In this document: positions 38,753 to 62,817 of the stretch, in pieces
How positions within the stretch are numbered: position 1 is the stretch's first letter
Layout: the number at the start of each line of letters is the position of its first letter
Origin: Candidatus Omnitrophota bacterium
Lineage (GTDB): Bacteria; Omnitrophota; Omnitrophia; Omnitrophales; Aquincolibacteriaceae
Direction of reading: 5' to 3'
Assembly: GCA_022711115.1 (NCBI GenBank)
Contig: JAKLFP010000007.1
Location: forward strand, 62,001-126,000
DNA: 64,000 bases
Notes under the pieces: generated by a model
Databases searched by the model: none
Told to the model about the DNA's origin: nothing
The model's input: only the letters and a program-made list of their open reading frames with translations
Position numbers and translations under genes: made by a program

Positions 38753-38786
38753 CTTCTCATGTCTATCTCTGAATCACAGAGATACA

Positions 38787-38817: not shown

Positions 38818-38880
38818 TCTACCCCATTCGATCTGCCCAATTTCTAGCCTGAATCTCGCATCTATCTCTAAAACGGCCTT

Positions 38881-41057: not shown

Positions 41058-41070
41058 AATGATCTCCCAA

Positions 41071-41115
41071 TTGACCTGACACATACATGCTATACAACCC
41101 GGGATATAGCAAGTC
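41071..41115 (-). repeat. Leader element A, left copy
   Basis: Read on the minus strand it begins GACTTGCTATATCCCG and contains ATGTATGT. GCTATA and TATAGC form arms of a 22-bp imperfect palindrome (41089-41110) around CCCGGG. A related sequence in opposite orientation lies at 62818-62852, matching 15 of the first 16 bases. It probably contains promoter or operator sequence for the DUF2924-recombinase operon. Confidence 0.55.
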
Positions 41116-41137
41116 ATATAAAGGGGTATTTTGTTCG

Positions 41138-41155
41138 GCGTCACGATGCTGTCGC
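41138..41155. promoter_or_regulatory. Operator-like element B, left copy
   Basis: GCGTCACGATGCTGTCGC matches 14 of 18 bases of the palindromic element at 63158-63175. It lies in the divergent region between DUF2924 and the CoiA-like gene, 76 bp before the latter. It may be bound by one of the WYL-type regulators at the other end of the island (inference). Confidence 0.4.
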
Positions 41156-43015: not shown

Positions 43016-43264
43016 ATGAAAAAGAAAACGGTAACGGTTAAAGGGGTGGACATGAAAAGCGCGGAAGTCCGTTTTGTCGAGTTTGATCACAACCAGGGTA
43101 ATGGCATGTGTGAAATGAGGCTTCGGAGCTCAGTAGGAAAAATGCTTGGCCGCATTCATATCCCCATAAGCGTTTTTAAACCAGCGGTGGGATGGCTTCT
43201 GAATGGTAACCTTCCCGACCTTTCATCGCGATTAGGAGGATTGAACAATGATGAGTCTAAGTAA
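43016..43264 (+). CDS. Small protein of unknown function
   Basis: An 82-residue protein with a basic N-terminus (MKKKTVTVKG), predicted beta strands and no recognised motif. An internal ATG at 43052 has AAAGGGG at good distance and may be the real start, giving 70 residues. The end overlaps rmuC by 17 bp, so it is in the same operon. It diverges from the LysR gene. Confidence 0.5.
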   Translation: MKKKTVTVKGVDMKSAEVRFVEFDHNQGNGMCEMRLRSSVGKMLGRIHIPISVFKPAVGWLLNGNLPDLSSRLGGLNNDESK

Positions 43265-44657: not shown

Positions 44658-46915
44658 ACAACGAAGCTGACAGCCGAATTATTGTCGATGATTTTTTGAG
44701 ACAGGCTCACTGGGATCCCCGGGATAAATCGCAGGTGCTCACGGAGTACTATGTAAAAAAGGAAACCTCAAAAAGGGGAAGACATCGCAATGAAATCATA
44801 TCGGAGCCAGCCACAGAAGAATACCATGCTGGACGTGCGGATTATGTGTTGCTTGACAGCCATGGCCGCCCACTAGCCATTATCGAAGCAAAGAAATCTG
44901 CAATAGAGCCCTATACAGCGAAGCAACAAGCCCTTCCATACGCCAAAAGCATTGGTGCGCCTTTCATTTTTCTTACTAATGGCGAATTAATCTACTTCTG
45001 GGACTATCAGAATGATGACGCTCGGATGGTGAATTCACTCTATTCTCGTCGCGATCTCGAACGAATCGTCCATCAGCGCAAAGAACGCAAGCCTCTTGCC
45101 ACGATCAGCATTCCTGACTATTACCTTCGTCAGGGAGAACAGCGAAAAGTCCGTGATTACCAGCAGGAAGCGATGCGTGCTCTTGATCATGCTTTAGAGC
45201 TCGGGAAGCGCCGGTTTTTAATTGAACTTCCAACCGGTACCGGAAAAACGGATGTGGTTGCTCTTTATTTGAAACGACTTTTCGACTCAGGGAGGGCAGA
45301 GCGGGTGCTTTTCCTTGTCGACCGGGAGCAATTGGCGAAACAAGCCCTTGAGGCGCTTCAAGATGTTCTCAGTGAGCATAGCAGCTATTGGCTGAAGCCT
45401 GGAGTGGTGAAGGAAGAAAAAGAGATCACGGTTTGTTTGTTGCAAACGATGATTGGGCGCTACCAAGAATTTACTAGCGGCTATTTTGATGTTGTCATAG
45501 CAGATGAATGCCACCGGTCCATTTATGGTGCATGGCAAACCGCTTTAACCCATTTTGATGCTGTACATATCGGATTGACTGCAACGCCTGCCGCTTATAT
45601 CGAACGTAATACCTTCGAATTCTATAACTGCAAAAATGGCCAGCCCGATTTTACTTATCCTCTCCTTGAAGCTTTCAAAAAAGATTATTTGGTTCCCTAT
45701 AAATTCGCATCAGGCATCACGGTCCTGATTGCGGAAGGTACGGACGAATACGATCCCGAGAAGTTTGAGCGAGAATGGACGAATGCGGATACTAATCGAA
45801 AGTTCGTTGAAGAATTTGAACGTTTAGCCTGGCAAACCTACAAGGACCAAGCGCCCAAGCAGCGGGTTGGGCCAGGGAAGACCATTGTATTTGCAATCAC
45901 CAAACGGCATGCGGCAAGGTTGGCAAAAATATTTAATGAGATGCATCCGGAGCTCAATGGGCGTTACGCGGAAGTCATTACTTCGGATGTTATGAATGCT
46001 GATGAATTAATCCGAAAATTTAAGCGCGAAGACTATCCTCAAGTGGCGGTCAGCGTAGGTATGTTAGATACGGGTTTTGATTGTCGAGAAGTCCTCCACT
46101 TACTGCTTTGTCGCAAGGTGCTGAGCCCAATTTTATACCAGCAAATGCGTGGCCGCGGTACGAGGACAGCTCCTCATATCGGTAAAAAATATTTTGTGAT
46201 ATATGACTTTTTCGGGAATCACAAATATTTTAATGATAGCGATGCGGATATTTTTGCCGGACATGGTGGAGGCCATGGTGCGACGCCGGGCGGTACTTTG
46301 CCCAAACCGATTTCAGAAAAAGAACTAATCGAATTGGGTCTGAAAGATGAATGGCTCGAAGCGGTTAATTATATCGAAGTAGGTCCGGAAGGGGAGCGTG
46401 TTGATAAGAAGCAGTATGTTACCAATTGGGAACAAGTTATTCGGGAGAGAGTGAATGATGACCATCTGTTGAGGAAGGTCAGGGATATCAAGGATCCCGA
46501 AAAGGATGGGCTGACATCAAAGGAAGAAGAAACCTTAGCTAAAAATCTTAATCAGCCAGAAATGTATTTCAATGAAGATAATCTTCGGCGTGCTTATAAA
46601 GAACCTGGTGGAACCCTTATTGACTTTATTCGTAGAGCGCTTGGCATGATCAAAACCAAGTCGAAGGAGGAAGTCATTATTGAAAATTTCCATGCTTGGC
46701 TTGTTACAAAAAAATTCACGCCTGAACAAGCCCAGTATCTGAATCTGCTGAAGAATCGCGGTATTGTGAGAGGCGAGCTTAAAGTAGCTGATCTATTTGA
46801 GCCGCCCCTTTCAATACTAAATGCTGCATCGTTGGGCACAGAGCTGTTCGGGGAGCAGGGACTAAAAGATGTTATTGAAGAAATGAATAATGCTGTCTTT
46901 GCGAAGGCAGGATAA
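44654..46915 (+). CDS. hsdR: Type I restriction enzyme, R (motor/nuclease) subunit
   Basis: A 753-residue HsdR of the shorter EcoEI-like type. The nuclease domain has ADYVLLDSHGRPLAIIEAKK near 75 (Asp...Glu-x-Lys). The helicase has GTGKTD near 198, IADECHRS near 284 and LTATPA, then the second RecA-like half with MRGRGTRTAP. The C-terminal domain contacts the methylase. The start is GTG. It cleaves unmodified DNA after translocation with HsdM and HsdS, encoded next. Confidence 0.92.
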   Translation: MNNEADSRIIVDDFLRQAHWDPRDKSQVLTEYYVKKETSKRGRHRNEIISEPATEEYHAGRADYVLLDSHGRPLAIIEAKKSAIEPYTAKQQALPYAKSIGAPFIFLTNGELIYFWDYQNDDARMVNSLYSRRDLERIVHQRKERKPLATISIPDYYLRQGEQRKVRDYQQEAMRALDHALELGKRRFLIELPTGTGKTDVVALYLKRLFDSGRAERVLFLVDREQLAKQALEALQDVLSEHSSYWLKPGVVKEEKEITVCLLQTMIGRYQEFTSGYFDVVIADECHRSIYGAWQTALTHFDAVHIGLTATPAAYIERNTFEFYNCKNGQPDFTYPLLEAFKKDYLVPYKFASGITVLIAEGTDEYDPEKFEREWTNADTNRKFVEEFERLAWQTYKDQAPKQRVGPGKTIVFAITKRHAARLAKIFNEMHPELNGRYAEVITSDVMNADELIRKFKREDYPQVAVSVGMLDTGFDCREVLHLLLCRKVLSPILYQQMRGRGTRTAPHIGKKYFVIYDFFGNHKYFNDSDADIFAGHGGGHGATPGGTLPKPISEKELIELGLKDEWLEAVNYIEVGPEGERVDKKQYVTNWEQVIRERVNDDHLLRKVRDIKDPEKDGLTSKEEETLAKNLNQPEMYFNEDNLRRAYKEPGGTLIDFIRRALGMIKTKSKEEVIIENFHAWLVTKKFTPEQAQYLNLLKNRGIVRGELKVADLFEPPLSILNAASLGTELFGEQGLKDVIEEMNNAVFAKAG

Positions 46916-46928
46916 GGAGCTTTTTTAT

Positions 46929-48578
46929 ATGAAACAGGAATTGCGTCAAAAATTACGTCGTATTACAGATATTCTTTGGGCCGGGGGAGTGGTAAATCCG
47001 GTGACTTACATCGAACAGTTATCCTATCTTATCTATCTCAAGCTTCTTGATGAGCAAGAATCCGAAATCGAATTGCGTAAACGAATGTTAGATCAACCCA
47101 AAAACCAAAATGGCAGCCTTTTCCCAGATCAAGCGCAACGATATCGTTGGTCTAATTGGAAGTTTGATAGTGGGGAAAAGCTCAGGAATTTTGTTCGTGA
47201 TGAGGTTTTTCCTTATATGGGTTCCTTGGTTAAGGAACAACCGCAGATCGCAGAATATTTCCGTGATGCCATTTTGGAAATAGTTGATCCCCATGTTTTG
47301 AAGCAGGTTGTTGATGAACTTGATAGTATCGAATTTAGGAAACTAGGTACTGATGTTAAAGGGGATATTTTTGAGTATTTGCTGACCCACCTTGGGCAGT
47401 CATCGCTGAACGGCCAATTTCGGACACCCCTCCAGATTCGAAAAATGATGGTTGAGATGGTTGATCCTGACTTGGGGGATACGGTTTATGACCCCGCGTG
47501 CGGAACGGGTGGTTTTTTAATTGATGCAGTTGAATACATGATGGCGAAATACTCTGCTGATCCGATCGAAATCCCCATTTATGGCGAAGAATGGCTGGAA
47601 TCCAAAGATTTAACTCTAGAGAAAGCTAAAAAGCAAATTCCTAATCTTCAAAGTTATAAAAAAGGTCGAGGAGAAAAAATAGTAGATTGGGATCTGCTCG
47701 AAAAAGCGATTTATGGGAACGACGTTTCTAGGCAGATGATGCGTATTTCAGTCATGAATCTAGTGCTCCACGGGATTCGTAATGCACACGTAAAACGTGC
47801 TAATACGCTTTCTGAAGTAGGAGGGCTGTCTGAGGAAGATCTCAAGCGTAAATATAAGGTTATTCTTTCCAATCCACCATTTGCTGGTCAACTTCCTAAA
47901 GATTCGATTCGCCAAGATCTGCCAACGCATTCAAAAAAAAGCGAATTGCTTTTTCTTTCTGTGATGATGGAGGCCTTAGCACCAGGTGGCCGATGCGCTG
48001 TTGTAGTGCCTGAAGGGCTTCTTTTTGGTTCTACTGCTGCGCATGTAGATCTTCGGAAAAAATTAATTGAAGATTTTAACCTCCTAGCGGTTATTTCTTT
48101 ACCTTCCGGTGTTTTTAAGCCATATGCAGGTGTAAAAACTGGTATTTTGGTTTTTCGGAAGCCACTAAATGATGAAAACAAGTTTAGGCGAAATAATAAA
48201 GTCTGGTTTTATGAAATCCAAAATGATGGATATGATCCCGATAAGATTTCGGGTGGCGTTCGTCCTGAAACGCCTGAAACGAATGATATCCCAAGGGTTT
48301 TACTTGAATGGCAGGAATACAAAAAATCTGGTTTCAAAAATCTACCTGGACGTGAAGCGGGAACGATGCTTGATGCCGGACAAGAAGAGCCTAAATCTTG
48401 GTGGGCTAGCTACGATCTGATAATTGAAAATGATTATAATCTTGCGGCTGGACGCTATAAACCACAAATCATGTCGCCAGTTCCGACAGGTGATCCTGTT
48501 AAAACCATCAAAGAACTTATACAACTTGAAAATAAAACACTAGAAGATTTAGAAACTCTTTTAAAGGATGTAATGTGA
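46929..48578 (+). CDS. hsdM: Type I restriction enzyme, M (methyltransferase) subunit
   Basis: A 549-residue N6-adenine methyltransferase. A helical N-terminal domain precedes motif I DPACGTGGFLIDA near 196 and the catalytic NPPF in LSNPPFAGQ near 315. ATG 46929 has AAGGAG upstream. The stop overlaps the GTG of hsdS by four bases. Confidence 0.93.
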   Translation: MKQELRQKLRRITDILWAGGVVNPVTYIEQLSYLIYLKLLDEQESEIELRKRMLDQPKNQNGSLFPDQAQRYRWSNWKFDSGEKLRNFVRDEVFPYMGSLVKEQPQIAEYFRDAILEIVDPHVLKQVVDELDSIEFRKLGTDVKGDIFEYLLTHLGQSSLNGQFRTPLQIRKMMVEMVDPDLGDTVYDPACGTGGFLIDAVEYMMAKYSADPIEIPIYGEEWLESKDLTLEKAKKQIPNLQSYKKGRGEKIVDWDLLEKAIYGNDVSRQMMRISVMNLVLHGIRNAHVKRANTLSEVGGLSEEDLKRKYKVILSNPPFAGQLPKDSIRQDLPTHSKKSELLFLSVMMEALAPGGRCAVVVPEGLLFGSTAAHVDLRKKLIEDFNLLAVISLPSGVFKPYAGVKTGILVFRKPLNDENKFRRNNKVWFYEIQNDGYDPDKISGGVRPETPETNDIPRVLLEWQEYKKSGFKNLPGREAGTMLDAGQEEPKSWWASYDLIIENDYNLAAGRYKPQIMSPVPTGDPVKTIKELIQLENKTLEDLETLLKDVM

Positions 48579-49870
48579 TTAGCACTTATAAGGTTGTTCC
48601 TCTAGAAAAACTAGCAAATAGTGAGCGATCGGCTATAAAAATCGGTCCCTTTGGTAGCCAGTTAAAAAAAGAAGATCTAACAACCTCGGGGATACATGTT
48701 GTTGGGATTGAAAATATTTTGAATGATCAATTTGATGGGTTGGGAAATCGCTATATCAGTCAGGAGAAATTTTCGACATTAAAAAGCTTTGAAATCAGGC
48801 CGGGCGATATTCTCATTACAATGATGGGAACAATTGGCGAGGTGGGTATTGTTCCTGATGGAATTAAGACATCGATAATGGATTCTCATTTATTGAGATT
48901 TCGACCAAATACAAAAATTTGTACTCCAGAATATGTTAAATGGCTTATCAAAGAAAGCGCAGCGACCAAACAGGTTCTTCATGGCAAAGCGCATGGGGCC
49001 ATCATGAAGGGTTTGAATTCAAGTATTGTAAAAAAACTCCCAGCGCCTCTCCCCATTGTCTCAGAACAAAAACATATCGTGAGCATTCTGAATAAAATCG
49101 ATTCCATCAGAATAAAACGCGATGAATATAATGTAAAATTCGACGAATTGCTCTCAGCAATTTTTTACAAATTTTTCGGTGATCCGGCTACAAATCCAAT
49201 GGCTTGGACCTATAAGCCTTTGGGAGAGGTCTGTATTCAAAAACCGCAGTATGGGGCCAATGCAAGCTCTAAGAACTTTAGCAAGGGTGAGCCTCGGTAT
49301 GTACGAATTACTGATATCAATGAGCAAGGTAGACTCCGGCAGGATGAAAAGAGGGGTATAGATCTGGCGGATTGGGATGAATATAAATTAATAGATGGTG
49401 ATTTGCTTTTTGCTAGGAGTGGCGCTACTGTTGGAAAGACATATCTTTATCGAAATGTAGATGGGTTATGCGTTTACGCGGGGTATTTAATACGATTTAG
49501 AACTGATCCCAATAAAATTTTGCCCCGATTTCTTTTTGCGCTGACAAGAACACCTTACTATAAGGCGTGGGTTACTTCGAAAAAAAGAGTTGCTGCGCAG
49601 CCCAATATTAATGGCCAAGAATATTCTTCCTTTAGGATTCCCGTACCACCGATTGATTTGCAAAAGAAATTTACAGTAATCTATAAAGTATTGGAAAATA
49701 TTGAAATTTGCAAAGAAACAAAAGATGAAAAAATAAAAGATCTGTTTTTGAATGTTGTTTATAAGGCTTTCTCTGGCGAGTTAACATCAAAATGGCGTAC
49801 AGAACATGCCAAGGAGCTTTTAGCGGAAACGCGCGAACAAGAGATGCTGCTTAATTGCGGAAAGGATTGA
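48575..49870 (+). CDS. hsdS: Type I restriction enzyme, S (specificity) subunit
   Basis: A 431-residue specificity subunit with two target-recognition halves (about 1-190 and 205-395), each closed by a helix and the usual proline-rich text (LPIVSEQKHIVSIL; IPVPPIDLQKKF). It sets the bipartite DNA target. Its coding sequence is clearly more AT-rich than that of the core genes. The next ATPase gene starts one base after its stop, so it extends the restriction operon. Confidence 0.9.
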   Translation: MISTYKVVPLEKLANSERSAIKIGPFGSQLKKEDLTTSGIHVVGIENILNDQFDGLGNRYISQEKFSTLKSFEIRPGDILITMMGTIGEVGIVPDGIKTSIMDSHLLRFRPNTKICTPEYVKWLIKESAATKQVLHGKAHGAIMKGLNSSIVKKLPAPLPIVSEQKHIVSILNKIDSIRIKRDEYNVKFDELLSAIFYKFFGDPATNPMAWTYKPLGEVCIQKPQYGANASSKNFSKGEPRYVRITDINEQGRLRQDEKRGIDLADWDEYKLIDGDLLFARSGATVGKTYLYRNVDGLCVYAGYLIRFRTDPNKILPRFLFALTRTPYYKAWVTSKKRVAAQPNINGQEYSSFRIPVPPIDLQKKFTVIYKVLENIEICKETKDEKIKDLFLNVVYKAFSGELTSKWRTEHAKELLAETREQEMLLNCGKD

Positions 49871-49871
49871 T

Positions 49872-51677
49872 ATGCTGACTGGACTAATGGTCGGAAATTT
49901 TAAAGCTTTTGCTGATACGCAAAAAATTAAGATCAAACCTATTACGTTGATTTTCGGGGCTAATAGCGCAGGAAAGTCTAGCTTATTGCATGCATTGTTA
50001 CTTTTAAATCATGCTTCGCAGCGGCGTGACAGCTCCATGCCCTCTCAGTTTGATATCACAAAAATGGATATAGGTGGTGAATCTGTCGATTTAGGGGGTT
50101 TTAACCAATATGTACATCGGCGGGATGTGGCACGCAAAACCGAGTTTGGAGTTTCTGTTAAAGCTCAGGATTTAAAAGGCGGATATCAAAGTCTTTTGAA
50201 ATCCTCGAAGGAAATCACTGCCATCATTCGAGTCGGAGTCGAACAAGAAGAAATAAAAATAAAGCAATCATGGGCAGAGTCTAAAGGAATATCTTTAGAA
50301 GATATTAAAGATCCTTCAAAAAAAGCACCGGGTGTGCAGAAAACCGTAGAGTTTCCTACAGGAGTTTTGCGTGCAATAAGTGATCCTCGGTTGGAAGCCT
50401 ATGATGTTTCAATTGATGATGAAGTGATTGCCAAGATGAGCCTTCGAAAAGGCGGTATTTTTCGTTTGGATCGTGTGTCGGTCAATCATCCCTTCATCCG
50501 TGGCCTTGTCGAAAATATGCTTTTGGCATGCTCGAGCACAGAGAAAATCACGAATGAAGATTTCGATATTGCACAAGATGAAATTAACAATCTTCTTACC
50601 TTATTAGAAGTAAAAGCAGATGTTTTGCTGCCTTACGCAATTGCTTTATCTAAAAAAGAGGGTGCAGGAGCAGGCGAGCCAAGCGAAATTCAACCCGAAT
50701 ATCAGACTAAGCAGTTTATGTTTATTAGTAAAGAGAATAGAAGTGAAGATTTGCGAAAAGCTGTTCGCCTTCTTTTTCCAACAGCATTACAAAGCTTCTT
50801 AAAGGATCTGAGTCAAAAAGCAGAGAATATCTTAAGCAAAGTTATTTATCTGGGCCCTTTACGCTCATATCCGCCACGCCATTTGGCATTTGTGTCTGAA
50901 AGTGATCCAAACTGGAAAGCCGGCGGTGGATATCTTTGGAATGTGATTAAACGAGATGCTTCGGTTCGAGATCGTGTTAATGAATGGTTGTCGGACAAAA
51001 AGAAACTCTCCTCACCATATTCATTCCGAATTAATAATTTAGTTACCACGGAAGATGCATCTCTACGGGTATCAAAATTGATCGAAGGAATCGTGGAGGG
51101 TGAGGCCGGAGTTATGGATGAGTCTCCGGTGTCTCTATTTGATCTTGTCATGCAAGATCCTTCATATTTGACAGATAAAACGGATGAAGCATTGACAAGC
51201 ATGCGTGGAGTGCCAGACCCCGTGTTGGTGGACGTTCGGTCGGGGACAGAAGTTTCTCATCGCGACGTTGGGATTGGAATAAGTCAGGTTTTGCCCGTAT
51301 TGGTAGCTGCGTATTCTTCTAAAGGTAAAATATTAGCTATGGAACAACCAGAGATACATCTTCATCCGGGGCTTCAAGCGGAACTTGGAGATGTGTTTAT
51401 TCAGTCGACAGTAGGGGACAATAAAAATAGTTTCATTCTCGAAACACACAGTGAACATCTCGTGCTGCGAATTATGCGACGCATTCGTGAAACATATGAA
51501 AATAAACTACCGCCAGGCATGCCGCCTATTAAGCCCGAAGATGTTTCTATTTTATATGTTGAACCCGATGGCGCTAGGAGTATTGTTCGCGAAATGGAAT
51601 TAAATGAGCGCGGTGATTTTGTAAAGGCCTGGCCTGGCGGTTTTTTTGAAGAAAGCTTAAGGGAAGTAATTCCATAA
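49872..51677 (+). CDS. DUF3696-type AAA ATPase
   Basis: A 601-residue SMC/ABC-like ATPase. It has Walker A GANSAGKSS near 30, a long insert, the signature GIGISQVLPV near 475, Walker B LAMEQPEIHLHPG near 493 and a switch His in ETHSEHLVLR. The C-terminal part matches the DUF3696 pattern (SILYVEPDGAR). Such ATPases are frequent in defence islands. It abuts hsdS and overlaps the next gene by one base, so it forms a unit with the next two genes. Confidence 0.8.
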   Translation: MLTGLMVGNFKAFADTQKIKIKPITLIFGANSAGKSSLLHALLLLNHASQRRDSSMPSQFDITKMDIGGESVDLGGFNQYVHRRDVARKTEFGVSVKAQDLKGGYQSLLKSSKEITAIIRVGVEQEEIKIKQSWAESKGISLEDIKDPSKKAPGVQKTVEFPTGVLRAISDPRLEAYDVSIDDEVIAKMSLRKGGIFRLDRVSVNHPFIRGLVENMLLACSSTEKITNEDFDIAQDEINNLLTLLEVKADVLLPYAIALSKKEGAGAGEPSEIQPEYQTKQFMFISKENRSEDLRKAVRLLFPTALQSFLKDLSQKAENILSKVIYLGPLRSYPPRHLAFVSESDPNWKAGGGYLWNVIKRDASVRDRVNEWLSDKKKLSSPYSFRINNLVTTEDASLRVSKLIEGIVEGEAGVMDESPVSLFDLVMQDPSYLTDKTDEALTSMRGVPDPVLVDVRSGTEVSHRDVGIGISQVLPVLVAAYSSKGKILAMEQPEIHLHPGLQAELGDVFIQSTVGDNKNSFILETHSEHLVLRIMRRIRETYENKLPPGMPPIKPEDVSILYVEPDGARSIVREMELNERGDFVKAWPGGFFEESLREVIP

Positions 51678-52603
51678 TGTTATTAAATCTTGCACTTAAC
51701 CCCTGCATCTTTGATCCCACCCAGTATTCTAATAACAGTTTATGTGATCCGTTGCTCGGTAATCTCAAAAATGTATTGTTAGAAGAAGCCCTCGTTCGGG
51801 ATTTGCGAAATGGTGATTGGATGAAATACATTGGTGATAATTCCAGCATTTGGCATTCGCGCGCAAAGGAGCTTATAAAAAAAATAATTAGACAAAACCG
51901 CACTTATAAAGCCGAATCAGTAGGCGCTCAAAATCCAAACAGCTATTCTGAATGGTGTAAAGAGGCAATCTTGTCTCACGAAACAAAAAATTTGAACGGC
52001 ATTATTGCTGCCACTGGTACTGTTACATCTTTTTCATCCTCTCCTGTCGTGACATGTATTGAGAAATTGCATAATGCCGCGTGGTGGACAGCTAGAAGTA
52101 ATTCTGTTCGACTTCAGAAGAAAATAACCGACTATCTAAAACATTTAGATCTTTTATTGAAACACGCCAATTCCTTTATGTTTATAGATCCTTTTTTTGA
52201 TCCTTCGGAGGCGAATTACCAGGATTTTCAACAATTATTGCAAGTAATTGCCAGGCGTGAGATTAAACCCAAGGTCGAATTCCATAGAAAAGAAAGCCTT
52301 GTTGTTGCTGGCGTTCGAAAGGTTTTGACTCCGAAAGAATGGGAAAATCGATTTCTTCCCTTTAAGCCTATATTAGCCTCGAACGGAATGGCCGCCGAAG
52401 TATTTATTTGGGATGATTTCCATGACAGATATATTATCAGCGATATTGCTGGAATTTTAGTTCCTCATGGTCTTGATGTCAGTAATCGTGCTAGTGCAGA
52501 AACGACATGGTCCCGAATTTCAAGAAGCGATAGAGATGATGTTCAAAAAGAATTTCATCCTGCTGCTGGTAGGCACATCTTGAAAGGATCCTTTTTTATA
52601 TAA
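51677..52603 (+). CDS. Unknown protein of the ATPase cassette, possible PLD-like C-terminus
   Basis: A 308-residue protein that I do not recognise. The C-terminal half has FMFIDPFFDPSEANY and FHDRYIISDIAG. The latter resembles the H-x-K/R-x4-D motif of the phospholipase D superfamily with Arg in place of Lys, so a degenerate or variant PLD fold is possible. The N-terminal half is helical without motif. It overlaps the DUF3696 ATPase by one base, and the OLD-family gene starts two bases after it. That spacing argues for an obligate partner. Confidence 0.6.
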   Translation: MLLNLALNPCIFDPTQYSNNSLCDPLLGNLKNVLLEEALVRDLRNGDWMKYIGDNSSIWHSRAKELIKKIIRQNRTYKAESVGAQNPNSYSEWCKEAILSHETKNLNGIIAATGTVTSFSSSPVVTCIEKLHNAAWWTARSNSVRLQKKITDYLKHLDLLLKHANSFMFIDPFFDPSEANYQDFQQLLQVIARREIKPKVEFHRKESLVVAGVRKVLTPKEWENRFLPFKPILASNGMAAEVFIWDDFHDRYIISDIAGILVPHGLDVSNRASAETTWSRISRSDRDDVQKEFHPAAGRHILKGSFFI

Positions 52604-52604
52604 C

Positions 52605-54209
52605 GTGAAAATTACAAAATTAGAAATTAAAAATTTTAGATCAATCAAAGATTTAACTTTAAATCCGTCATATCTTTGCGCTTTGGTTGGTGAGAATAAT
52701 TCAGGCAAATCAAATATTCTTCAAGCCATTAACCTTGTCTTGGGAGAATCTTGGCCGTCCGGCCGCCAGATTAATGATGATGACGTTTATAATCGCGAAA
52801 TTGATAAAGATATAGAAATCAAAATATGGTTTGATGAAGGATCCACGATCACGGACGCCACGGGCAGAGACTATGTAATAAAAGGGTTTTTGCTTCGGTA
52901 CACTCACTATAAAAGAAAATCCGGCTCTCACTTTAAAGGTGATCCGAAATTTGACTTTGTTTGCATTGATGACAATGGAAATGAGATCAAAATTATTCGT
53001 AGGCTACCAAAAGCGGGAAGTGGTCAGCGACCTATTCCTGAAACGGTTTATGTTACTTCGGAAATACGAGATCGTTTTCCCGTGGTTTTTATTGGTGTGA
53101 ATCGTGATCTGAAATATCATTTATCTGGTTCTCAATGGACTTTGTTTGGCAAGCTTCTTAAGGAAATAGAACGTGAATTTTTGTCTGAACAGTCTAGAAA
53201 AGATGAATATGCGAAAAAAATGAGCGAAGTTTCTTCCCTGCTTCGCATACCTTTATTCGAGCAAATGGAAAAGATGATTGAGGATAATGTTAAAAAACAA
53301 ACTGGATTTAAACAGGCAAGCCTTGCATTCAAAGAACCTCCAGTCTTATCTCACTACAAAAGTCTCGAATTGACTGTTAAAGAATCTGACCTTTATTCTG
53401 ATGCTCCGGCTCTTGAAATGGGGTCAGGAGTGCAGAGCGCGATAGTCATTGCTTTAATCCAAGCGTATCGAGAGCTTCAAAAATCCGGTGGGATCTTAAT
53501 GATAGAGGAACCTGAAGTTTATCTTCATCCGCACACGCGACGGTTCTTTTATCAGCTTTTACATGGTTTATCTGAACAAGCAAATCAGGTTTTTTATACA
53601 ACGCATTCCGTGGAATTTTTAGATCTGTCTGATTATTCAACGATTGCTGTTGTTCGTAAATTGCCAGCTGAAGGGACTAAAGCATACCAGCCGTCTGGCT
53701 TATCTATCCAACCAGGAACAAAAAAAGAATTAAAATTGTTAACAGAATTTGATGCGCGCAGGAACGAGCTTTTTTTTGCTAAAAAAGTTTTGCTTGTTGA
53801 AGGCGCTACTGAAAAACATTCTATCCCGTTTGCTTTCAAATTATTGGGGCATGATGTTAATGAGCAAGGGATATCAATAATTGATGTTGGTGGTAAGGAA
53901 AATCTCGAATTTTTTATAATAATTCTGAATGCATTTAAGATTCCTTATTGTGTATTGCATGATGAAGACCGAAATGCAAAAAATTATTTAACATATCATG
54001 ATGGTTCCGAAGGCATTAATAAGAAAATTGAAGCCGCTGTAAGTGCGACAGATAGAATATTCCGAATGGACCCTGATTTTGAAGGTGTTCTTAGTCTTCC
54101 AATGGGCGACAAGGTAAAAAATGCACGCGACAAACTAAGCCGAATGGCGGACAAGAACGATCTTCCTGGTATTTTGATTGATTGTGTTAATAAAGTAACA
54201 TCCATTTAA
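52605..54209 (+). CDS. OLD-family ATP-dependent endonuclease (AAA plus TOPRIM)
   Basis: A 534-residue protein. The ATPase half has Walker A GENNSGKSN near 29, MGSGVQSA, Walker B LMIEEPEVYLHP and TTHSVEF. The C-terminal TOPRIM nuclease domain starts at LLVEGATEK near residue 398, with a metal-binding DED in VLHDEDRN. OLD nucleases are known from P2 phage and from Gabija and PARIS-like defence. The GTG start lies one base after the previous stop. Whether it acts with the DUF3696 ATPase is unknown. Confidence 0.85.
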   Translation: MKITKLEIKNFRSIKDLTLNPSYLCALVGENNSGKSNILQAINLVLGESWPSGRQINDDDVYNREIDKDIEIKIWFDEGSTITDATGRDYVIKGFLLRYTHYKRKSGSHFKGDPKFDFVCIDDNGNEIKIIRRLPKAGSGQRPIPETVYVTSEIRDRFPVVFIGVNRDLKYHLSGSQWTLFGKLLKEIEREFLSEQSRKDEYAKKMSEVSSLLRIPLFEQMEKMIEDNVKKQTGFKQASLAFKEPPVLSHYKSLELTVKESDLYSDAPALEMGSGVQSAIVIALIQAYRELQKSGGILMIEEPEVYLHPHTRRFFYQLLHGLSEQANQVFYTTHSVEFLDLSDYSTIAVVRKLPAEGTKAYQPSGLSIQPGTKKELKLLTEFDARRNELFFAKKVLLVEGATEKHSIPFAFKLLGHDVNEQGISIIDVGGKENLEFFIIILNAFKIPYCVLHDEDRNAKNYLTYHDGSEGINKKIEAAVSATDRIFRMDPDFEGVLSLPMGDKVKNARDKLSRMADKNDLPGILIDCVNKVTSI

Positions 54210-54287: not shown

Positions 54288-54743
54288 ATGGTATTGTTTG
54301 AAACTATAGTTGCTCAGATGCCAGCCTTAATGAAAAAGCTAAGTGCGTCTCCTTTTCAAACGAGAAGTGAAACGAAGAATTTACCTGAAAAAGGCATCTA
54401 TGTGTTTTATGAGGATGGAAAACCTATTTATGTTGGCCGCTCCCGTAATTTAAGGCAGCGAATCCTAAATCATAGCCGTCCCTCATCACCACACAATTCC
54501 GCGTCCTTTGCTTTTTTGCTTACCCGGGAAAAGACGGGCTGCCTTCGCCATAAAGACAGCCGTTTTCGGGCCTGCCTTGAAAAAGATCCTCAATTCGCAA
54601 AGGTCTTTAAAGAACAAAAGGCGAGAATCTCAAGGATGAAAATAAAAGCGGTTGAGATCGAAGACCCCAATACGCAGGCGATTTTCGAGATTTATTGTTC
54701 AGAAAAGCTTCGGACTCCTTATAACGATTTTGATACGCACTGA
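54288..54743 (+). CDS. GIY-YIG nuclease domain protein
   Basis: A 151-residue stand-alone GIY-YIG protein: KGIYVFYEDGKPIYVGRSRNLR gives the GIY...YVG pair and catalytic Arg within about 22 residues, and Glu in IFEIYCSEKL is the likely metal ligand. It probably nicks or cuts DNA. It starts a new unit 78 bp after the OLD-family gene, and the next gene follows its stop by five bases. AAAAAGGAAA precedes the ATG. Confidence 0.82.
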   Translation: MVLFETIVAQMPALMKKLSASPFQTRSETKNLPEKGIYVFYEDGKPIYVGRSRNLRQRILNHSRPSSPHNSASFAFLLTREKTGCLRHKDSRFRACLEKDPQFAKVFKEQKARISRMKIKAVEIEDPNTQAIFEIYCSEKLRTPYNDFDTH

Positions 54744-54748
54744 TTTTG

Positions 54749-56398
54749 ATGAAAATCCAATGGACGAAATATAAAAAAGATGTCAGAGGTCGTGATCCCT
54801 TAGGTGTTCAGGCTATTGGTATTCATCTTTACGGTTTACTCGTCCCCGGCATCACCAACGTAACCGATCGTTTTCGATATTATTCCTTCTACCCCTGGCT
54901 GCTAAAGATGATCGAGCAAGAAGGGGGCGTCGATAATTTCCTCCTATATCTTCGCCGAGCGGAGTTCCTCTTCGGGCTCATTTCCCATGTCCATGACGAT
55001 GAAGTGCAAAAACGTTCTGCCCACGTTGTCGGGACGATGGTCATGGGGAAAGCAGTTTCAGAGCTTGAAAATAAAGGGTCGATCAGTCTCTCCAAATACA
55101 CGGATCTGGATTCTGACCTCGAGTATCGCTATTTCAAGAATCCTTTGGGTGGATTCGGCCAATATTATCTAGGCCCTCTTGGAGAATTAGGCATCCTAAG
55201 CAGGGAGGAAAAGAAGTTTTCACTGTATCCCCGGGGCCAGGTACTTGCTCAGGCCTTTGAACCCGGTCCCTATCGGGAAATGTTTTGGAAATGCGTTCAA
55301 TCCGATAAATTACCCGCCCAAACCCTGCAAGAACTTCGAAAATTCTTCCCCGCCTCATCGTTAGGGCCCAGTTCTGCAGAATACAAGCTATTAAAGGATT
55401 ATCTCTTTTCTGAGGACTCACCCGAAGTTCAGGAAGGGGACAGAACTTACAGGAGGCGCGACACCCTGCGATTACTTCTTCTTTTGCTGCAGGAGGTGCA
55501 GACGGAGTACGTTGATTGGTGGGAGCCTTTGAATATTTTATTTTATGGTCTCAACAGCAAAGGAAAGAAGTTTGTCGAGCCGCCCGAGTTGAAGGATGTT
55601 GCTGATCTGTGGCGCTATTATCTAAAGCACGAGCATTTTTCGATCGGATTAAGCGCTATTTTTGTTTGCCTTCAGGAACTCATCCAAAAACAAAATATCC
55701 CCGAGCGATCGATCGCTTCCGTGTGTTGGGATAGCTTCATCAAGCAGGCTCCGGCAGCAGGGCTGCCTAAGCGACTTATCGATTGCTATAAGTTCATGAG
55801 AAAGGACCCTTCTTTTGAATCGTTCCTGAATTATCTGAAAGAAAATTATTCGAGAAGTTCACCCTGGGGCGAAGATGCTTTGAGTGAATTTTCACTGTGG
55901 AAAATTATTCGCCAGGGCGAGCCTAGTGGCGCGGATTTACTCGGCGTCGGCATAATCCTGATTCTGATGCAGATGGTAAATAATAAGTTTTCCCCTGAAA
56001 AAATCATCGGGCAGCAGCATTTTGAGCGGCTGATTGGAGTCTATCCGGTCAATCTTCGTTTATTAGAGAAGGATGTCTCGTCCAGGTGGAAGAAGTTGCC
56101 TCTTCAGCAAGTCGTTGTGGATATTATTCGGCGTTATGTCATCCAGAGACATCTCGAAGTCGCTACCATGAAGCATTTTTCTCATGGTCTCTCCACGTTT
56201 CGTTTTATTAGGGAGCAAGGGATGTTGTTACCTACAGGTCTTGAGATCGATTACATCGCGGGTACAAGCCCTCGTTTGAATCAGTCTCTCCAGTATTTAT
56301 CTGATCTCGGCTTTGTCGTAGAAGCAAAGCAAGGTTTTAAGCCCGGTGACGCCAAGAGAATTCAAAGCGTGCTCGGAGGGTTGAAGCATGGAGCTTGA
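54749..56398 (+). CDS. Unknown 549-residue protein coupled to an HKD nuclease
   Basis: No motif I can assign with confidence. The N-terminus (DPLGVQAIGIHLYGLLVPG, then RYYSFYPWLL) recalls the start of DUF6361-type proteins found near phospholipase D-like nucleases, from memory only. The rest is mostly helical, with possible winged-helix segments near the end (LGILSREEKKFSL; YLSDLGFVVEAK). There are no membrane helices. It overlaps the following nuclease gene by 11 bp, which suggests strict co-expression. A DNA-recognition or scaffold role is inference. Confidence 0.6.
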   Translation: MKIQWTKYKKDVRGRDPLGVQAIGIHLYGLLVPGITNVTDRFRYYSFYPWLLKMIEQEGGVDNFLLYLRRAEFLFGLISHVHDDEVQKRSAHVVGTMVMGKAVSELENKGSISLSKYTDLDSDLEYRYFKNPLGGFGQYYLGPLGELGILSREEKKFSLYPRGQVLAQAFEPGPYREMFWKCVQSDKLPAQTLQELRKFFPASSLGPSSAEYKLLKDYLFSEDSPEVQEGDRTYRRRDTLRLLLLLLQEVQTEYVDWWEPLNILFYGLNSKGKKFVEPPELKDVADLWRYYLKHEHFSIGLSAIFVCLQELIQKQNIPERSIASVCWDSFIKQAPAAGLPKRLIDCYKFMRKDPSFESFLNYLKENYSRSSPWGEDALSEFSLWKIIRQGEPSGADLLGVGIILILMQMVNNKFSPEKIIGQQHFERLIGVYPVNLRLLEKDVSSRWKKLPLQQVVVDIIRRYVIQRHLEVATMKHFSHGLSTFRFIREQGMLLPTGLEIDYIAGTSPRLNQSLQYLSDLGFVVEAKQGFKPGDAKRIQSVLGGLKHGA

Positions 56399-58883
56399 TA
56401 TTCTCGAAAGGGTGAAGAAGTTCGCGCCGACCGAGTCGTATATTACGACCTTCGGCGTGGACCTTCTTTTTTATGAAAAATATTTTCTTCCGACGCTTCA
56501 ACGAAGTGGTTGTTACAAGAACGTCATCTTTGTCGACGCATATCAATACGATAAAACGATGTCGGAGGGAACTGCATTGGGCTTTTCGGGTGTTGGAACA
56601 GAGTATCTTCTTCTGCCGTTCCGCGCCAATCTTGCTTTCCATCCCAAAGTCTATTTTTTTGTAAGAGAAAAAAAGGACACGTTCCAATATCTTTGTCTTC
56701 TTGGAAGCGGCAACCTGACGCATTCCGGGCTTACGCGTAATAAAGAGCTTTTTGTTGAAATTGAAGCTGAGTCGAGCCGGAAGCCAGGGGTCATTTGGCG
56801 CGACATTATTCAATATTTCAATAAACTGTTTCTTTCTCAGGAGGGGCAACCGGTAAGGCTTGCCCAAGACTGGTTCTCCAAGAATCTTCCGCAGGAGTTT
56901 GGAAGCGATAAGGAGTCGCAGCAGCTCCGTTTTATCAGTGCCCCGGATAAGAAGAGCATCCTTTCTCAATTCAAAGAGATGGTTCCCGAAGAAAAGGTGG
57001 AAAAAATTCTTATGTTTGCCCCTTTTTTTGATGGCGGGCTTCACGCTTTGGATGCCATTGAAAAGATGTTCCTACCCAGAGAGATCGAGATCATGTTTCA
57101 GCCGCACTTGGCGCGGCTACCTAAGGATTTGTTGAGAGATTGGATTCGAAAACGGAAGCATGTTCGGCTGTTGCAGTATCGTGAAAAAGACGAGCGGCGA
57201 TATCTTCACGCGAAATCGATATTAATCTCTACAAAGAAGCAGGATTACCTTTTGATAGGCAGCGCCAATTTAACGAGCGCCGCTCTTTTGACTCACGAAG
57301 CCCAGGAAGGCAATTTCGAGGCGTGTTTTTGTGTCACGCTTCCCAAGGATTCCGAGACAACGGTGCTTGATATCGCTTCTATTTCGGAGTCTGCCAAGAT
57401 CGACGATCTGGATATCTTGCCGGAACTTGTCCTGGAGCAAAAGGAAAGCGTGTATTCAGATTTGCGGTTTACTTCGGCCGTCTGTACCGGGCAACGGTAT
57501 GAATTCTTTTTGGATCCTGAAACTCCTAAGGCGAAAGCAACGCTGGAGGCCATCAGGTTTGACGGTGCGATTATAGAGAACTTTCTCGACGCGCAGCTTA
57601 GTGTTGGGGACCAACCCCGGATAAGCTTCCTGGATAAGAACCAAGCGCTGCTCAATGCGGTTTCTGTTCGTCTCAGGGATGCAAAGGGCAAGCCCGGGTT
57701 GTGGACCCCGATCACGCGTTTTGAGAATCTAAGGCGAATCTTGCAGTCATCCCGCGGCAAAGTAGATCAGATCAGAGATCAATTCTTGAGCGCTGTGACG
57801 GAGGAGGGTGAAGAGCACTATTTGAATTTGATGATGGAATACCTGATCGACCAAACCGTAGAAGAACAAAAAAACCGGATAGCCTCGAAGTCGAAGGGGC
57901 AAAAGGATGCCACAGGAGGTTCCGAGGACTCATCGGGTTATCAGATAGGAGATGCCAAACTGCCGGAAAGGCATCGGCGAGAAGAATCATGGGATCTCGG
58001 GGATCTTGGTTTTGTGAGCGGGTTCGATTATTTGATTCACGCGATCAAACAAAAAAAAACAAGCAAGTATCGTGATGCCGATGCAAAGGAGCTCCGGGTT
58101 GAAGGGGAGGGCGAAGAAGACCAATATGACAAGGCGATCAATGAGAAACTGGGTGAAGAGCAGAAAATCAAACGCGATCTTTATTCCCTTGCAAAGCAAT
58201 TGGCTTATTACAGACGAAAATTCAAATCAGTCGCGCAATCTAATGATCCCGCTTTTGGTAACGGGTTTTCTTTGGTTTGTTTCTTTTTATTAACGGCTCT
58301 GCCCCATGTCCCACATCTGAGTAAGAGATTTCCGAAGGGGCAAGCAATGAGTAATGAAGTCTGGGAAGAGTTCATTATGAACGCAGCTTTTGAGATCGGC
58401 CGACGGATCTACTCGGGGGATGGTAAGGCGAAACTATCGGTCGGCTATGTCAGTGAGGAAGTGCTCGAGGTATCCCTTTCGGCTTTAAGTTATGTTATCT
58501 CGACGATATTTATTTTTATCAAGCGCAGCGCGGAGCAATATGGGGACGACCAATTTTTTTACGCCTTGGTTCTAACGAGAATTATGATGATCTTGACTGC
58601 GATGCTTGAGGCAATGCCCGGCAGCACTCAGACGAAGATTGAAGCGCTTCGGGCAAAGCTGGTTGACGTTACCGAGAATTTCCCTTGCGGATGGCTTCAT
58701 GTCCAGAAATACCAAGAAGATTTTTTGATATGCGTAGCGGATTTTGTTGATCGAGTGCCTAAAAAGGAAACGACAATTGGCCCCATAAAGATCGTTTCGG
58801 GGTCTAAAGGAGAGCTGGAGTTTTCATGTCGGGGCAGGAGGATATCGCTCTGGTCCAACGACCTGGCAGAGCTTAAATATTGA
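56388..58883 (+). CDS. Large HKD-family (phospholipase D-like) nuclease
   Basis: An 831-residue protein with two HKD half-sites: His85 and Lys87 in FHPKVYF with GSGNLTHSG at 106-114, and His274 and Lys276 in YLHAKSIL with GSANLTSAA at 291-299. Together they form one PLD-type active site, which cuts nucleic acid without metal in this family. The 500-residue C-terminal part has a charged linker (about 500-600) and a helical domain without recognised motif. It ends the cassette with GIY-YIG and the 549-residue protein. Confidence 0.8.
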   Translation: MELDILERVKKFAPTESYITTFGVDLLFYEKYFLPTLQRSGCYKNVIFVDAYQYDKTMSEGTALGFSGVGTEYLLLPFRANLAFHPKVYFFVREKKDTFQYLCLLGSGNLTHSGLTRNKELFVEIEAESSRKPGVIWRDIIQYFNKLFLSQEGQPVRLAQDWFSKNLPQEFGSDKESQQLRFISAPDKKSILSQFKEMVPEEKVEKILMFAPFFDGGLHALDAIEKMFLPREIEIMFQPHLARLPKDLLRDWIRKRKHVRLLQYREKDERRYLHAKSILISTKKQDYLLIGSANLTSAALLTHEAQEGNFEACFCVTLPKDSETTVLDIASISESAKIDDLDILPELVLEQKESVYSDLRFTSAVCTGQRYEFFLDPETPKAKATLEAIRFDGAIIENFLDAQLSVGDQPRISFLDKNQALLNAVSVRLRDAKGKPGLWTPITRFENLRRILQSSRGKVDQIRDQFLSAVTEEGEEHYLNLMMEYLIDQTVEEQKNRIASKSKGQKDATGGSEDSSGYQIGDAKLPERHRREESWDLGDLGFVSGFDYLIHAIKQKKTSKYRDADAKELRVEGEGEEDQYDKAINEKLGEEQKIKRDLYSLAKQLAYYRRKFKSVAQSNDPAFGNGFSLVCFFLLTALPHVPHLSKRFPKGQAMSNEVWEEFIMNAAFEIGRRIYSGDGKAKLSVGYVSEEVLEVSLSALSYVISTIFIFIKRSAEQYGDDQFFYALVLTRIMMILTAMLEAMPGSTQTKIEALRAKLVDVTENFPCGWLHVQKYQEDFLICVADFVDRVPKKETTIGPIKIVSGSKGELEFSCRGRRISLWSNDLAELKY

Positions 58884-59251: not shown

Positions 59252-60514
59252 ATGAAGATTCCAGAAAATGTGATTAAAAGAATCAAAATCTCAAGTATTA
59301 AAGGAGCAGACTATAACCCACGAGCTGATCTTCAGCCCGGTGATCCTCGGTATGAAAAAATAAAAAACTTCACTGCCAAATATGGAGATGCCGGGGTCCT
59401 TGTGTGGAATAAGCGAACAAAGACATTAATTTCGGGGCATCAGAGGCTTAAGATTTTCAAAGAACTTGGGCTTACGGAAGTCTATGCCCGTGTGGTTAAT
59501 GTGTCCGTTCATGACGAAAAGATTATGAATATTGCCTTGAACCAGCTTGGGGGCATGTGGATCGAGGAAATGCTCAAGCCGATGTTGGTGGAGCTTGGTC
59601 AATTGCCGGAGGTTGATTTGACGCTGACCGGTTTTGATTTGCCCGATATCGATAGCATTTTGGACAAATATGCAGATGACCAGGAAATTATTCAAGAAAT
59701 GCCTGAGTCCGTCGAGCCTCACAAAGAACCAATCACTCGGATTGGCGAAGTTATTGCTCTTGGAGAACACAGGGTTATGTGCGGAGACTCGACTGATTTT
59801 AAATCTGTCGAGGCTCTTATGGGTGGCGAGCGCGCTGGTTTGGTGCTGACTGATCCGCCTTATTGTGCCAATTATTCTGCAGAGCAGAGACCTACCAACA
59901 AACGTGAAACTCCACGGTGGGCGCCGATTTTGAATGATGATCTTTCGGAAAGTGAGTACGCATCGTTCCTTGAGAAGTCATTCAGTAATATGCGGCAGTT
60001 TCTCGCACCTGGGGCAGTGTCGTACATTTTTAACGGGTTTGCCCAATTCGGGAAAATGTACGATCTGCTTACCGCGCTCGATTTTCATGTCGGCGGTGTA
60101 ATCGTGTGGGAAAAACCAAATTTTTCACCATCCTTTGCAGACTATCAATGGCAATGCGAATTTCTGCTCTACTCCTGGTTGAACGGAAATGGCGCGCATC
60201 GATGGTATGGACCGCCGGACGAGACAAATATTTGGAAAATTTCTCGTTCTTCAAAAATCTCCCACCCCACAACCAAGCCTGTGGAACTTGCGATGCGCGC
60301 GTTGCGAAATAGCAGTCAGCGCGGAGATGTGGTTCTCGATCTGTTCTTAGGTAGTGGTTCGACTCTGTTTGCCGCAGAACGACTAAAGCGAAGATGCTTT
60401 GGACTTGAGCTAGATGCCCGATATGTCGACGGGATCGCGACGAACTTCATAAAAAACTTCGGGCGTGAAAGCGTTAGCCCAGAAATCTTCGAGCGTTACG
60501 GAAAGGAGGTGTGA
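59252..60514 (+). CDS. ParB-domain DNA methyltransferase
   Basis: A 420-residue phage-type protein. Residues 1-110 are ParB/Srx-like, with LISGHQRLK as the nucleotide-binding segment. The methyltransferase (about 165-410) has the catalytic motif TDPPY near 200 before the SAM motif LDLFLGSGSTL near 365, an order typical of beta-class N4/N6 methylases. It is widespread in prophages, where it modifies phage DNA. AAAAGGAGA precedes the ATG. The small terminase follows. Confidence 0.88.
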   Translation: MKIPENVIKRIKISSIKGADYNPRADLQPGDPRYEKIKNFTAKYGDAGVLVWNKRTKTLISGHQRLKIFKELGLTEVYARVVNVSVHDEKIMNIALNQLGGMWIEEMLKPMLVELGQLPEVDLTLTGFDLPDIDSILDKYADDQEIIQEMPESVEPHKEPITRIGEVIALGEHRVMCGDSTDFKSVEALMGGERAGLVLTDPPYCANYSAEQRPTNKRETPRWAPILNDDLSESEYASFLEKSFSNMRQFLAPGAVSYIFNGFAQFGKMYDLLTALDFHVGGVIVWEKPNFSPSFADYQWQCEFLLYSWLNGNGAHRWYGPPDETNIWKISRSSKISHPTTKPVELAMRALRNSSQRGDVVLDLFLGSGSTLFAAERLKRRCFGLELDARYVDGIATNFIKNFGRESVSPEIFERYGKEV

Positions 60515-60515
60515 T

Positions 60516-61172
60516 ATGGCTTCAGAGAAACCAGAAATAAGCGCTCTTCAGATTCTCGAAGATATCCGTTCCGGGAAAGAAGACCCGAAGCTTTTTGACC
60601 GCGAAAAGCGTTTGGCGTGCGGGGCGTGGCTGAAAGGGCAGGGCTACTCAACAGCTCACATCGCGCAAATCCTGAAAATGTCGGATCGACAAGCCCGTCG
60701 GGATTTCGAAATCATTAGAGCTCGAATGGTGCTGGCTTTCGACGAGAAATTCATCAAAGAAATGGTCAGCGAATTCGTCCACGAGCTCTATGACCACCAC
60801 GGATCCATGAAGCGGCATGCCCGCGGCAAGGATTTGAGCAACCAAGAGAAGATCGTTGCCGAGGCCCAGGCATGGAAAATCCTAAACGAGGGGATTGCTC
60901 GCTTGCAGGCATTGGGTGTGCTACCGGCCCAAAATTCGCAGGTCGGCCCCGGATTGGGTCTTGACGGCAATGCCGGCGAGGCCACTCCTGAAAAAATGCG
61001 TGAAATGCTTGTGGAGTATGAAAATGCAGCTCAGGCAGCCGGGTCTTTGGACAAAGAGACGCAGGCGAAAATCGTAGAGTTCAATAAGCGGATCGACGCC
61101 TTGGCGATTGTCCGCGATATTAAAAAACTGGAAGGCGAATCACTGAAAGAAAAGGAGACGGAAAATGAGTGA
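60516..61172 (+). CDS. Probable terminase small subunit
   Basis: A 218-residue protein with an N-terminal helix-turn-helix (YSTAHIAQILKMSDRQARRD) followed by long helices. It lies directly before the terminase large subunit and overlaps it by eight bases, the standard position of a DNA-binding small terminase. No sequence signature proves it. ATG 60516 follows AAAGGAGGTG. Confidence 0.65.
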   Translation: MASEKPEISALQILEDIRSGKEDPKLFDREKRLACGAWLKGQGYSTAHIAQILKMSDRQARRDFEIIRARMVLAFDEKFIKEMVSEFVHELYDHHGSMKRHARGKDLSNQEKIVAEAQAWKILNEGIARLQALGVLPAQNSQVGPGLGLDGNAGEATPEKMREMLVEYENAAQAAGSLDKETQAKIVEFNKRIDALAIVRDIKKLEGESLKEKETENE

Positions 61173-62817
61173 CAATATTTTTGATGATATGGAGAATTCA
61201 AAAAAAGAAAAAGCCAGTAAGGACTTGTTGTTTTTCGCGACCACGTATTTTCCAAAATACTGCACCCTCTCGTTTTCTATGATGCATAAAGAGATGGCCG
61301 CATCGCTTCAGGAAATGACGTTTTCGCGGAAAAAACGCTATGCCTTTGCAGCGCCTCGCGGCTATGCAAAAAGTACCTTTGTGACCTTGATCTATGTTTT
61401 GTGGTGCATTTGCTACAAGTACGAGACTTGTATCGTGATTGCATCAAGCACGAAGGATCAATCGCGGAGACTCCTTTCTCATATTCGCAAGGAGCTCGAA
61501 TCCAACCCGCTTTTGCGGAGAGCATTCCCGGAAGTCATCTTGCGCCCGTTGGCGAGATGGAGCCAGGAGGAGATTATCTGCAAAAACGGCGTTTCCGTAT
61601 CTATTTCCAGCCCGCAGCATAGGAGCCGCGGTTTGCGTAATGCGGAAGCGAAACCCGGGTTGATTATTTTGGACGATGCGGATAGCGATGACAGTGTCCG
61701 CAAGCCTGAACAGCGCGAAAAGACTTTCGAGTGGTTCTCAAAAGTCGTGATGTACTTGGGATCTGATATCGCGAATATAGTCGCGGTCGGCACGATCATG
61801 CATCATGACTCCTTGCTTGCCAAAATGATCCGGAAAGAAGATGAATTTTCGAGATGGGTTTCCAAGAAATATAGGGCGATCATCGCGGATGCTAATCATT
61901 CGGATCTCTGGGAGCAGTGGCGCCGGATTCTACATAACCGAAATCTCGCCTGGGATCAAAACAGCGCGGAAGCGGCTATGAGGTTCTATGAGGAAAATAA
62001 AACGCAGATGCTCCTTGGCGCGGAGGTTCTTTGGAAGGAAAAGGAAGATTACCTGAGTCTCATGCTTCTCCAGGAGCAGGGAAGCGCTTCCTTTTATTCC
62101 GAGAAAATGAACGAACCTCTTACGGAGGCCAGCGTACGCAAGGAGGAGATCGCCTTTTATGACGAAGGGCTTTTTGCGGATGTGGGAAGCATTTTCCAGC
62201 AGCTGTCTGCCAAGGGTATAAAAACGACCTCAGTCGGCGCGTGCGATCCTTCCTCCGGAAGACCTCGCGGGGATTATTCCGCGATCGTCACAGCCTATGT
62301 GACGACAGATAAAGAAATATACGTCGTAGACGCCGAGCAGGTTCGCTGTGATTTTTCTACGCTGATGGACAAAATCTATCAGTATCACAAGCTGCGAAAA
62401 TTCCAATCTTTTTTCTATGAAGAAAATGGAATGCAGTATTGGCTCGGAGGTGAACTGCAAAAGAAGTATAAGGACTTGCCCGTGAAGCCTGTGAAAAACA
62501 CGGACCCGAAGGATGCGAGGATTCAGAAGCTTCTCTTCTACATTCGCAGCGGTCGGGTGAAGCTGTCGAAGCGCCTTACGGATCTTATCCGTCAGGTAAC
62601 GACTTATCCGTATTGCGATCACGACGATTTGTTGGACGCGCTGTCTATGATCCTGGATGCTCCGGACGGTCCGGATTGGGAATTTCGTCTTAAAGTTCTC
62701 AAGATGTTTGCTCCAGGGCCAGGTTCTGATAAATATCGATCCTGGAAAAAGACCTACCTAGCCAATGGTACCATCATTGAAGGGCCTGGTGATTTTGTGG
62801 GTGGGGTTCTCCGTTAG
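61165..62817 (+). CDS. terL: Phage terminase large subunit
   Basis: A 550-residue packaging motor. The ATPase half has the Walker A variant APRGYAKST near 63 and Walker B LIILDDADSDD near 167. The RNase H-like nuclease half begins at GACDPSSGRPRGDYSA near 358 and has a later acidic cluster in DHDDLLDALSM. No portal or capsid gene follows within the window, so the element is either an incomplete prophage, a satellite, or its head genes are beyond the edge. The stop codon is followed directly by leader element A. Confidence 0.9.
   Translation: MSDNIFDDMENSKKEKASKDLLFFATTYFPKYCTLSFSMMHKEMAASLQEMTFSRKKRYAFAAPRGYAKSTFVTLIYVLWCICYKYETCIVIASSTKDQSRRLLSHIRKELESNPLLRRAFPEVILRPLARWSQEEIICKNGVSVSISSPQHRSRGLRNAEAKPGLIILDDADSDDSVRKPEQREKTFEWFSKVVMYLGSDIANIVAVGTIMHHDSLLAKMIRKEDEFSRWVSKKYRAIIADANHSDLWEQWRRILHNRNLAWDQNSAEAAMRFYEENKTQMLLGAEVLWKEKEDYLSLMLLQEQGSASFYSEKMNEPLTEASVRKEEIAFYDEGLFADVGSIFQQLSAKGIKTTSVGACDPSSGRPRGDYSAIVTAYVTTDKEIYVVDAEQVRCDFSTLMDKIYQYHKLRKFQSFFYEENGMQYWLGGELQKKYKDLPVKPVKNTDPKDARIQKLLFYIRSGRVKLSKRLTDLIRQVTTYPYCDHDDLLDALSMILDAPDGPDWEFRLKVLKMFAPGPGSDKYRSWKKTYLANGTIIEGPGDFVGGVLR

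Follow-up and report, generated by a model that had tools for sequence, protein, structure and literature searches.

Here, we show that two genes, A and B, at 54749-58883 of the window (the whole stretch of 64,000 nucleotides that was analysed) are a strictly paired, co-evolving two-gene unit that is widespread. We read this pair, with a probability of about 0.6, as a self-contained nuclease module that is related to one half, ZacA-ZacB, of the Azaca defence system. DNA would be the substrate of B and A its regulator, and the genomic associations of the pair suggest an antiphage function. The original prediction had joined both genes to a preceding GIY-YIG gene in one functional antiviral unit. 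A real two-gene unit is supported for A and B, which co-evolve, are tied to restriction and methylation genes and lie in a mobile island, but membership of the GIY-YIG gene is not supported.

Gene layout and conservation of the pair

The three open reading frames all lie on the forward strand. The GIY-YIG gene (54288-54743, 151 aa; PF01541, E=3.7e-5, above the Pfam cut-off) has its stop at 54743, 5 bp before the ATG of A at 54749. This ATG is the likely start and gives the ZacA-like protein A 549 aa (54749-56398); the list of reading frames also offers a TTG at 54746 (54746-56398, 550 aa). B (56388-58883, 831 aa), a ZacB-like HKD protein of the PLD/TDP1 superfamily, overlaps A by 11 bp (56388-56398), which suggests translational coupling of the two. 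The reading frames, the 5-bp spacing and the 11-bp overlap had been predicted and are confirmed in the list, and Pfam bears out both nuclease domains, with PF01541 in the first protein and PLDc_2 and RE_NgoFVII in the large one.

B lies directly 3' of A in 88 of the 96 loci carrying A, which comprise 80 loci from a scan of one genome per species, plasmid loci, viral loci and the window; this collection scan used a 5-row subset of the alignment of A, the full 11-row alignment being too diverse. Since the pair recurs in so many loci, the pairing is more than chance. The other eight loci have either a B called with an upstream-extended start (three) or a truncated A (five). The two genes overlap in nearly all paired loci, most commonly by 4, 8 or 11 bp (37, 14 and 9 loci, respectively), and their tree distances correlate at r=0.947, the maximum of 500 permutations being 0.097.

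According to record titles, the carriers found by the scan belong to Pseudomonadota, Acidobacteria, Myxococcota, Gemmatimonadaceae and Nitrospirae; plasmids add Bacteroidota, Actinomycetota and haloarchaea. The distribution is patchy: A is absent from all 192 other related genomes searched, so the copy in the window was probably acquired horizontally. Scans of viral sequences with B alone and with the GIY-YIG protein alone gave no useful loci. We found no published account of the pair in the open-access literature, most subscription papers lying outside this search, which also returned no text on DUF6361 or PDC-M27.

Protein B

B is a remote homologue of ZacB. It matches PLDc_2 (PF13091, E=7e-10) and RE_NgoFVII (E=6e-6) in Pfam and, among defence profiles, ZacB (E=1.3e-16), PDC-M27B (4e-14) and then, weakly, DrmC (5e-8). 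The ZacB profile is matched by 11 of 11 members of the B family, and the hhalign alignment of this family with ZacB (E=1.3e-11) spans both HxK motifs, H85/K87 and H274/K276. No variation is seen among 83 B proteins at H85, N109, E120, H274, K276, N294 or E311, and K87 is kept in 82 of them, the last one having K87R. Two HxK motifs with downstream N/E residues and a PLD fold place B in the PLD/HKD phosphodiesterase superfamily. The predicted model is confident for residues 1-455, with a beta domain at about 360-455, and of low confidence in the helical C-terminal half. Its closest structural relative is TDP1 (E=3e-10), followed by SauUSI (2.4e-6), NgoAVII R (2.2e-5), polyphosphate kinase and BfiI. 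Taken together, sequence and model suggest that B is a nuclease acting on DNA.

TDP1 cleaves 3'-phosphotyrosyl bonds. One might thus speculate that B is no restriction nuclease and instead frees DNA ends of bound proteins or repairs such ends, e.g. in phage or plasmid replication. The fold would fit, TDP1 being the nearest one and likewise having two HKD motifs in a single chain, but this is at odds with the profiles of B, which point to PLD proteins of restriction and defence (RE_NgoFVII, ZacB, DrmC), and with the setting of the pair in defence islands. We regard such an end-processing role as improbable.

Protein A

The 549-aa protein had been described as unassigned, yet it can be assigned tentatively as a remote relative of ZacA. 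It matches the PADLOC profile of ZacA with E=1.2e-4, over residues 15-98 only, and in hhalign the family profile of A aligns with the real ZacA of locus L108 with E=2.3e-4, over only 42 residues (12-53). The ZacA profile is matched by 7 of the 11 A members, which match no other PADLOC model. The N-terminal signature of A reads LDxLGxQ...PGIxNVTxRxRYY, and the motif common to A and ZacA is LDxLG...PG...V..RaRYY. With confident similarity over only some 42 residues, A would be a homologue of ZacA less clearly than B is one of ZacB.

The profile and structure searches that the original prediction called for thus yielded the ZacA match and no fold match in the PDB, the best E-value for the model of A being 0.17. 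In the Pfam scan no family scored above its cut-off (DUF6361, at 0.04, is below). The AlphaFold2 model (pLDDT 87.6, pTM 0.89) consists mainly of helices, besides strand pairs at 151-160, 487-496 and 524-533, and points to a new predicted fold. Single relatives of A weakly match the winged-helix families HTH_45, Mrr_N and CggR_N, and these matches fit the presence of winged-helix-like segments in A.

Relation to known systems

We found no named system with exactly the gene set of the window, as had been supposed. Azaca comes closest to the pair, and one genome carrying A-B also has a real Azaca locus (L108), with ZacA of 431 aa, ZacB of 610 aa and ZacC of 1104 aa, overlapping by 7 bp (ZacA/ZacB) and 4 bp (ZacB/ZacC). 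A, an apparent remote homologue of ZacA, and B, a remote homologue of ZacB, occur in the same order in overlapping genes and share with ZacA and ZacB the motif LDxLG...PG.xxVxxRaRYY and the two HxK motifs. Yet, both exceed their L108 counterparts in length, A by about 120 aa and B by about 220 aa, the extra part of B being its C-terminal half, and no ZacC accompanies the pair. A strong ZacC match on the A-B contig was found in none of the 33 A-B genomes; two of the 33 have one, on other contigs. In the window, the PLD protein expected downstream of ZacA is in place (ZacB, 1.3e-16), whereas the operon lacks the ZacC helicase: the match of HsdR, which lies 7.8 kb upstream, to ZacC reaches only 0.0028. 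According to a 2026 review (PMC12926258), the mechanism of Azaca is unknown.

The PADLOC candidate PDC-M27 shares a component with the pair, PDC-M27B being matched by B (E=4e-14), but A matches no PDC-M27 model, and no helicase like PDC-M27C lies next to the A-B of the window. The likeness to DISARM consists of the weak match between B and DrmC (5e-8) and of DrmMI-type methylases near 10 A-B loci. The A-B of the window is however without DrmA and DrmB, A and its relatives match no DISARM model, and the set of DrmA, DrmB, DrmC and methylase is incomplete, with no DrmB among the matches listed for ten proteins of the defence region. The restriction enzymes NgoAVII, CglI and SauUSI have the PLD nuclease fold in common with B. 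They carry a target-recognition domain (B3 in NgoAVII and CglI) and an ATPase (PMC7913695, PMC5737866), and the active site of SauUSI is built from the HxK motifs of two protomers (PMC7913695). In contrast, each chain of B carries two HxK motifs, and none of these enzymes is known to have a partner such as A.

Restriction genes and the mobile island

The pair was predicted to follow a restriction operon and an OLD-family gene, which is correct, though two further genes intervene. The type I restriction-modification operon (44654-49870, forward strand) consists of HsdR (44654-46915), HsdM (46890-48578) and HsdS (48575-49870). An RmuC gene (43248-44657) overlaps HsdR by 4 bp, as if it were the first gene of this operon. 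HsdM and HsdS match mad2 and mad5 of MADS, but far below the NCBI cut-offs, and we rejected this assignment. The intervening genes (49872-52603, forward strand) encode a DUF3696-type (AAA_15) ATPase of 601 aa and a 308-aa protein, with an NsnB/PDC-M55A-like and a weak NsnC match; we regard them as a separate neighbouring module. They are possibly a Menshen-related pair; Menshen itself was set aside, as the NsnB-like match is good, the NsnC match is weak and no DUF262 gene was seen. DUF3696-type ATPases also occur near A-B in L021, L034 and L040. The neighbouring OLD-family ATPase/TOPRIM nuclease (52605-54209, forward strand) matches Old (E=1.7e-62) and OLD-like_TOPRIM (1e-20).

The type I operon is a recurrent neighbour of A-B, outside its core. 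The HsdM and HsdS groups each occur at 13 A-B loci, and related HsdR or HsdM genes lie beside the pair in L029, L034, L089, L051 and L064. Gene orders vary: HsdM-HsdS-A-B-HsdR in L006, HsdM-HsdS-GIY-PIN-A-B-HsdR in L028 and L030, HsdR-HsdM-HsdS-A-B in L051 and L064, and HsdR-HsdM-HsdS-GIY-A-B in L089. N6-methylase genes are found near A-B more often than expected, within 10 kb in 8 of 33 genomes where 0.30 would be expected (P=2.6e-10) and within 20 kb in 10 of 33 (0.56 expected, P=4e-11), in a test that counts related genomes as independent and uses 33 hand-picked loci, mostly with long flanks. A-B is thus strongly linked to N6-methylase and type I restriction genes, a link that could reflect mere residence in defence islands. 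Besides the DrmMI-type methylases, its neighbours include DrmD, DpdE, SoFic, further defence families and annotated Zorya genes. In L005, a 587-aa protein (7083-8846) with no Pfam or PADLOC match is encoded between a DrmD helicase and A.

These neighbours raise the question of whether the pair needs an ATP-driven helicase or translocase in trans, supplied by HsdR, by DrmD/DpdE or, in Azaca, by ZacC, and is thus an add-on nuclease to restriction systems, comparable to R.NgoAVII and R.CglI, which have helicase subunits. ZacC does follow ZacB in Azaca, HsdR comes directly after B in L006, L028, L030, L046 and L050, and HsdR-HsdM-HsdS directly precede A in L051 and L064. Furthermore, the PLD nucleases of SauUSI (PMC7913695) and CglI (PMC5737866) work with helicase-like ATPases. 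However, the HsdR neighbours come from different families, and among 50 A-B loci with sufficient flanking sequence, 33 lack a large helicase-like ORF within 9 kb and only three have one adjacent on the same strand (a crude motif test, in which six positive controls passed). We therefore find dependence on a helicase in trans rather unlikely, although it is the alternative that we take most seriously.

The surroundings of the pair support its location in a defence-rich mobile island. On the left lies a tRNA-Lys (38680-38753), and after it come a large serine recombinase (38993-40606, reverse strand) and a DUF2924 gene (reverse strand); this stretch (38680-41144) is likely the left edge of the island. 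Downstream of B, a fusion of ParB-like and DNA methyltransferase domains, starting 368 bp after B, a small gene and a terminase large subunit (together 59252-62817) may be a remnant or the edge of a phage-like element. A search for a second attachment site or right edge of the island found none. The GC content of A and B is 0.47, a step up from the 0.37 of the OLD gene, which is weak evidence fitting separate origins of these blocks. Promoter-like sites at the locus are no more frequent than expected by chance.

The GIY-YIG gene

The survey of co-occurrence proposed in the original prediction upheld the A-B pair but not the trio, as a homologue of the GIY-YIG protein of the window was found at no other A-B locus. 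Were the three genes one system, the GIY-YIG protein would be a second effector nuclease. The 5 bp separating it from A are suggestive, and so are unrelated GIY-YIG genes beside A-B in six other loci (L004, L005, L026, L028, L030 and L089), one of which, in L089, is placed like the gene of the window, after HsdS and before A. Against this, relatives of the GIY-YIG protein on the five plasmids examined all occur without A-B, and GIY-YIG domains near the pair are not clearly enriched: any such domain is found within 20 kb in 2 of 33 genomes (0.57 expected, P=0.11; within 10 kb, P=0.04), and the two matches lie in similar Pseudomonas loci. We thus rejected the gene as a core member, given the lack of a conserved homologue at A-B loci and the weak enrichment, and consider a three-gene system very unlikely. 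The GIY-YIG gene is most likely only a neighbour, possibly encoding an accessory nuclease, and the unrelated GIY-YIG genes at the six loci may indicate a looser functional link with A-B. The gene of L089 (9227-9781, in Sorangium cellulosum), non-homologous though in the order of the window, was recognised by its motif only and has no Pfam match.

A model for the A-B module

PLD nucleases act through a phospho-histidine intermediate. In the two-gene module that we favour, B would be a phosphodiesterase of the PLD/TDP1 superfamily in which both HxK motifs of one chain form a single active site, and would cut the DNA backbone through such an intermediate, without metal. A would be its obligate partner and control the time or place of B's action; as it has a helical body and winged-helix-like segments, we propose that it binds DNA, B, or both. 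Invading DNA would be the target of the pair, working alongside restriction systems based on methylation; these may provide it with marked self DNA or with DNA ends. The pair would need no helicase gene of its own. A point against the module is that the closest PLD restriction enzymes (SauUSI, NgoAVII and CglI) depend on an ATPase, which A-B itself lacks. Either A replaces ATPase control or a neighbour supplies the ATPase. The former seems to us the better supposition, the latter a rather doubtful one. More tentatively, and at somewhat less than even odds, A-B might be an independent, widespread antiviral system: a TDP1-fold nuclease under a partner of new fold, with no ATPase of its own, serving as an exchangeable effector with many systems based on methylation, among them type I restriction, the DrmMI/DrmD type and, for Azaca, its dedicated helicase.

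Common in both bacteria and archaea, the A-B pair is a two-gene unit that catalogues of defence systems now capture only marginally, through weak matches to ZacA and ZacB. It would give Azaca a simpler two-part relative for study, and A is a candidate regulator, of new predicted fold, of a TDP1-like nuclease. That a single nuclease pair may serve beside different restriction systems is an idea that can be tested.
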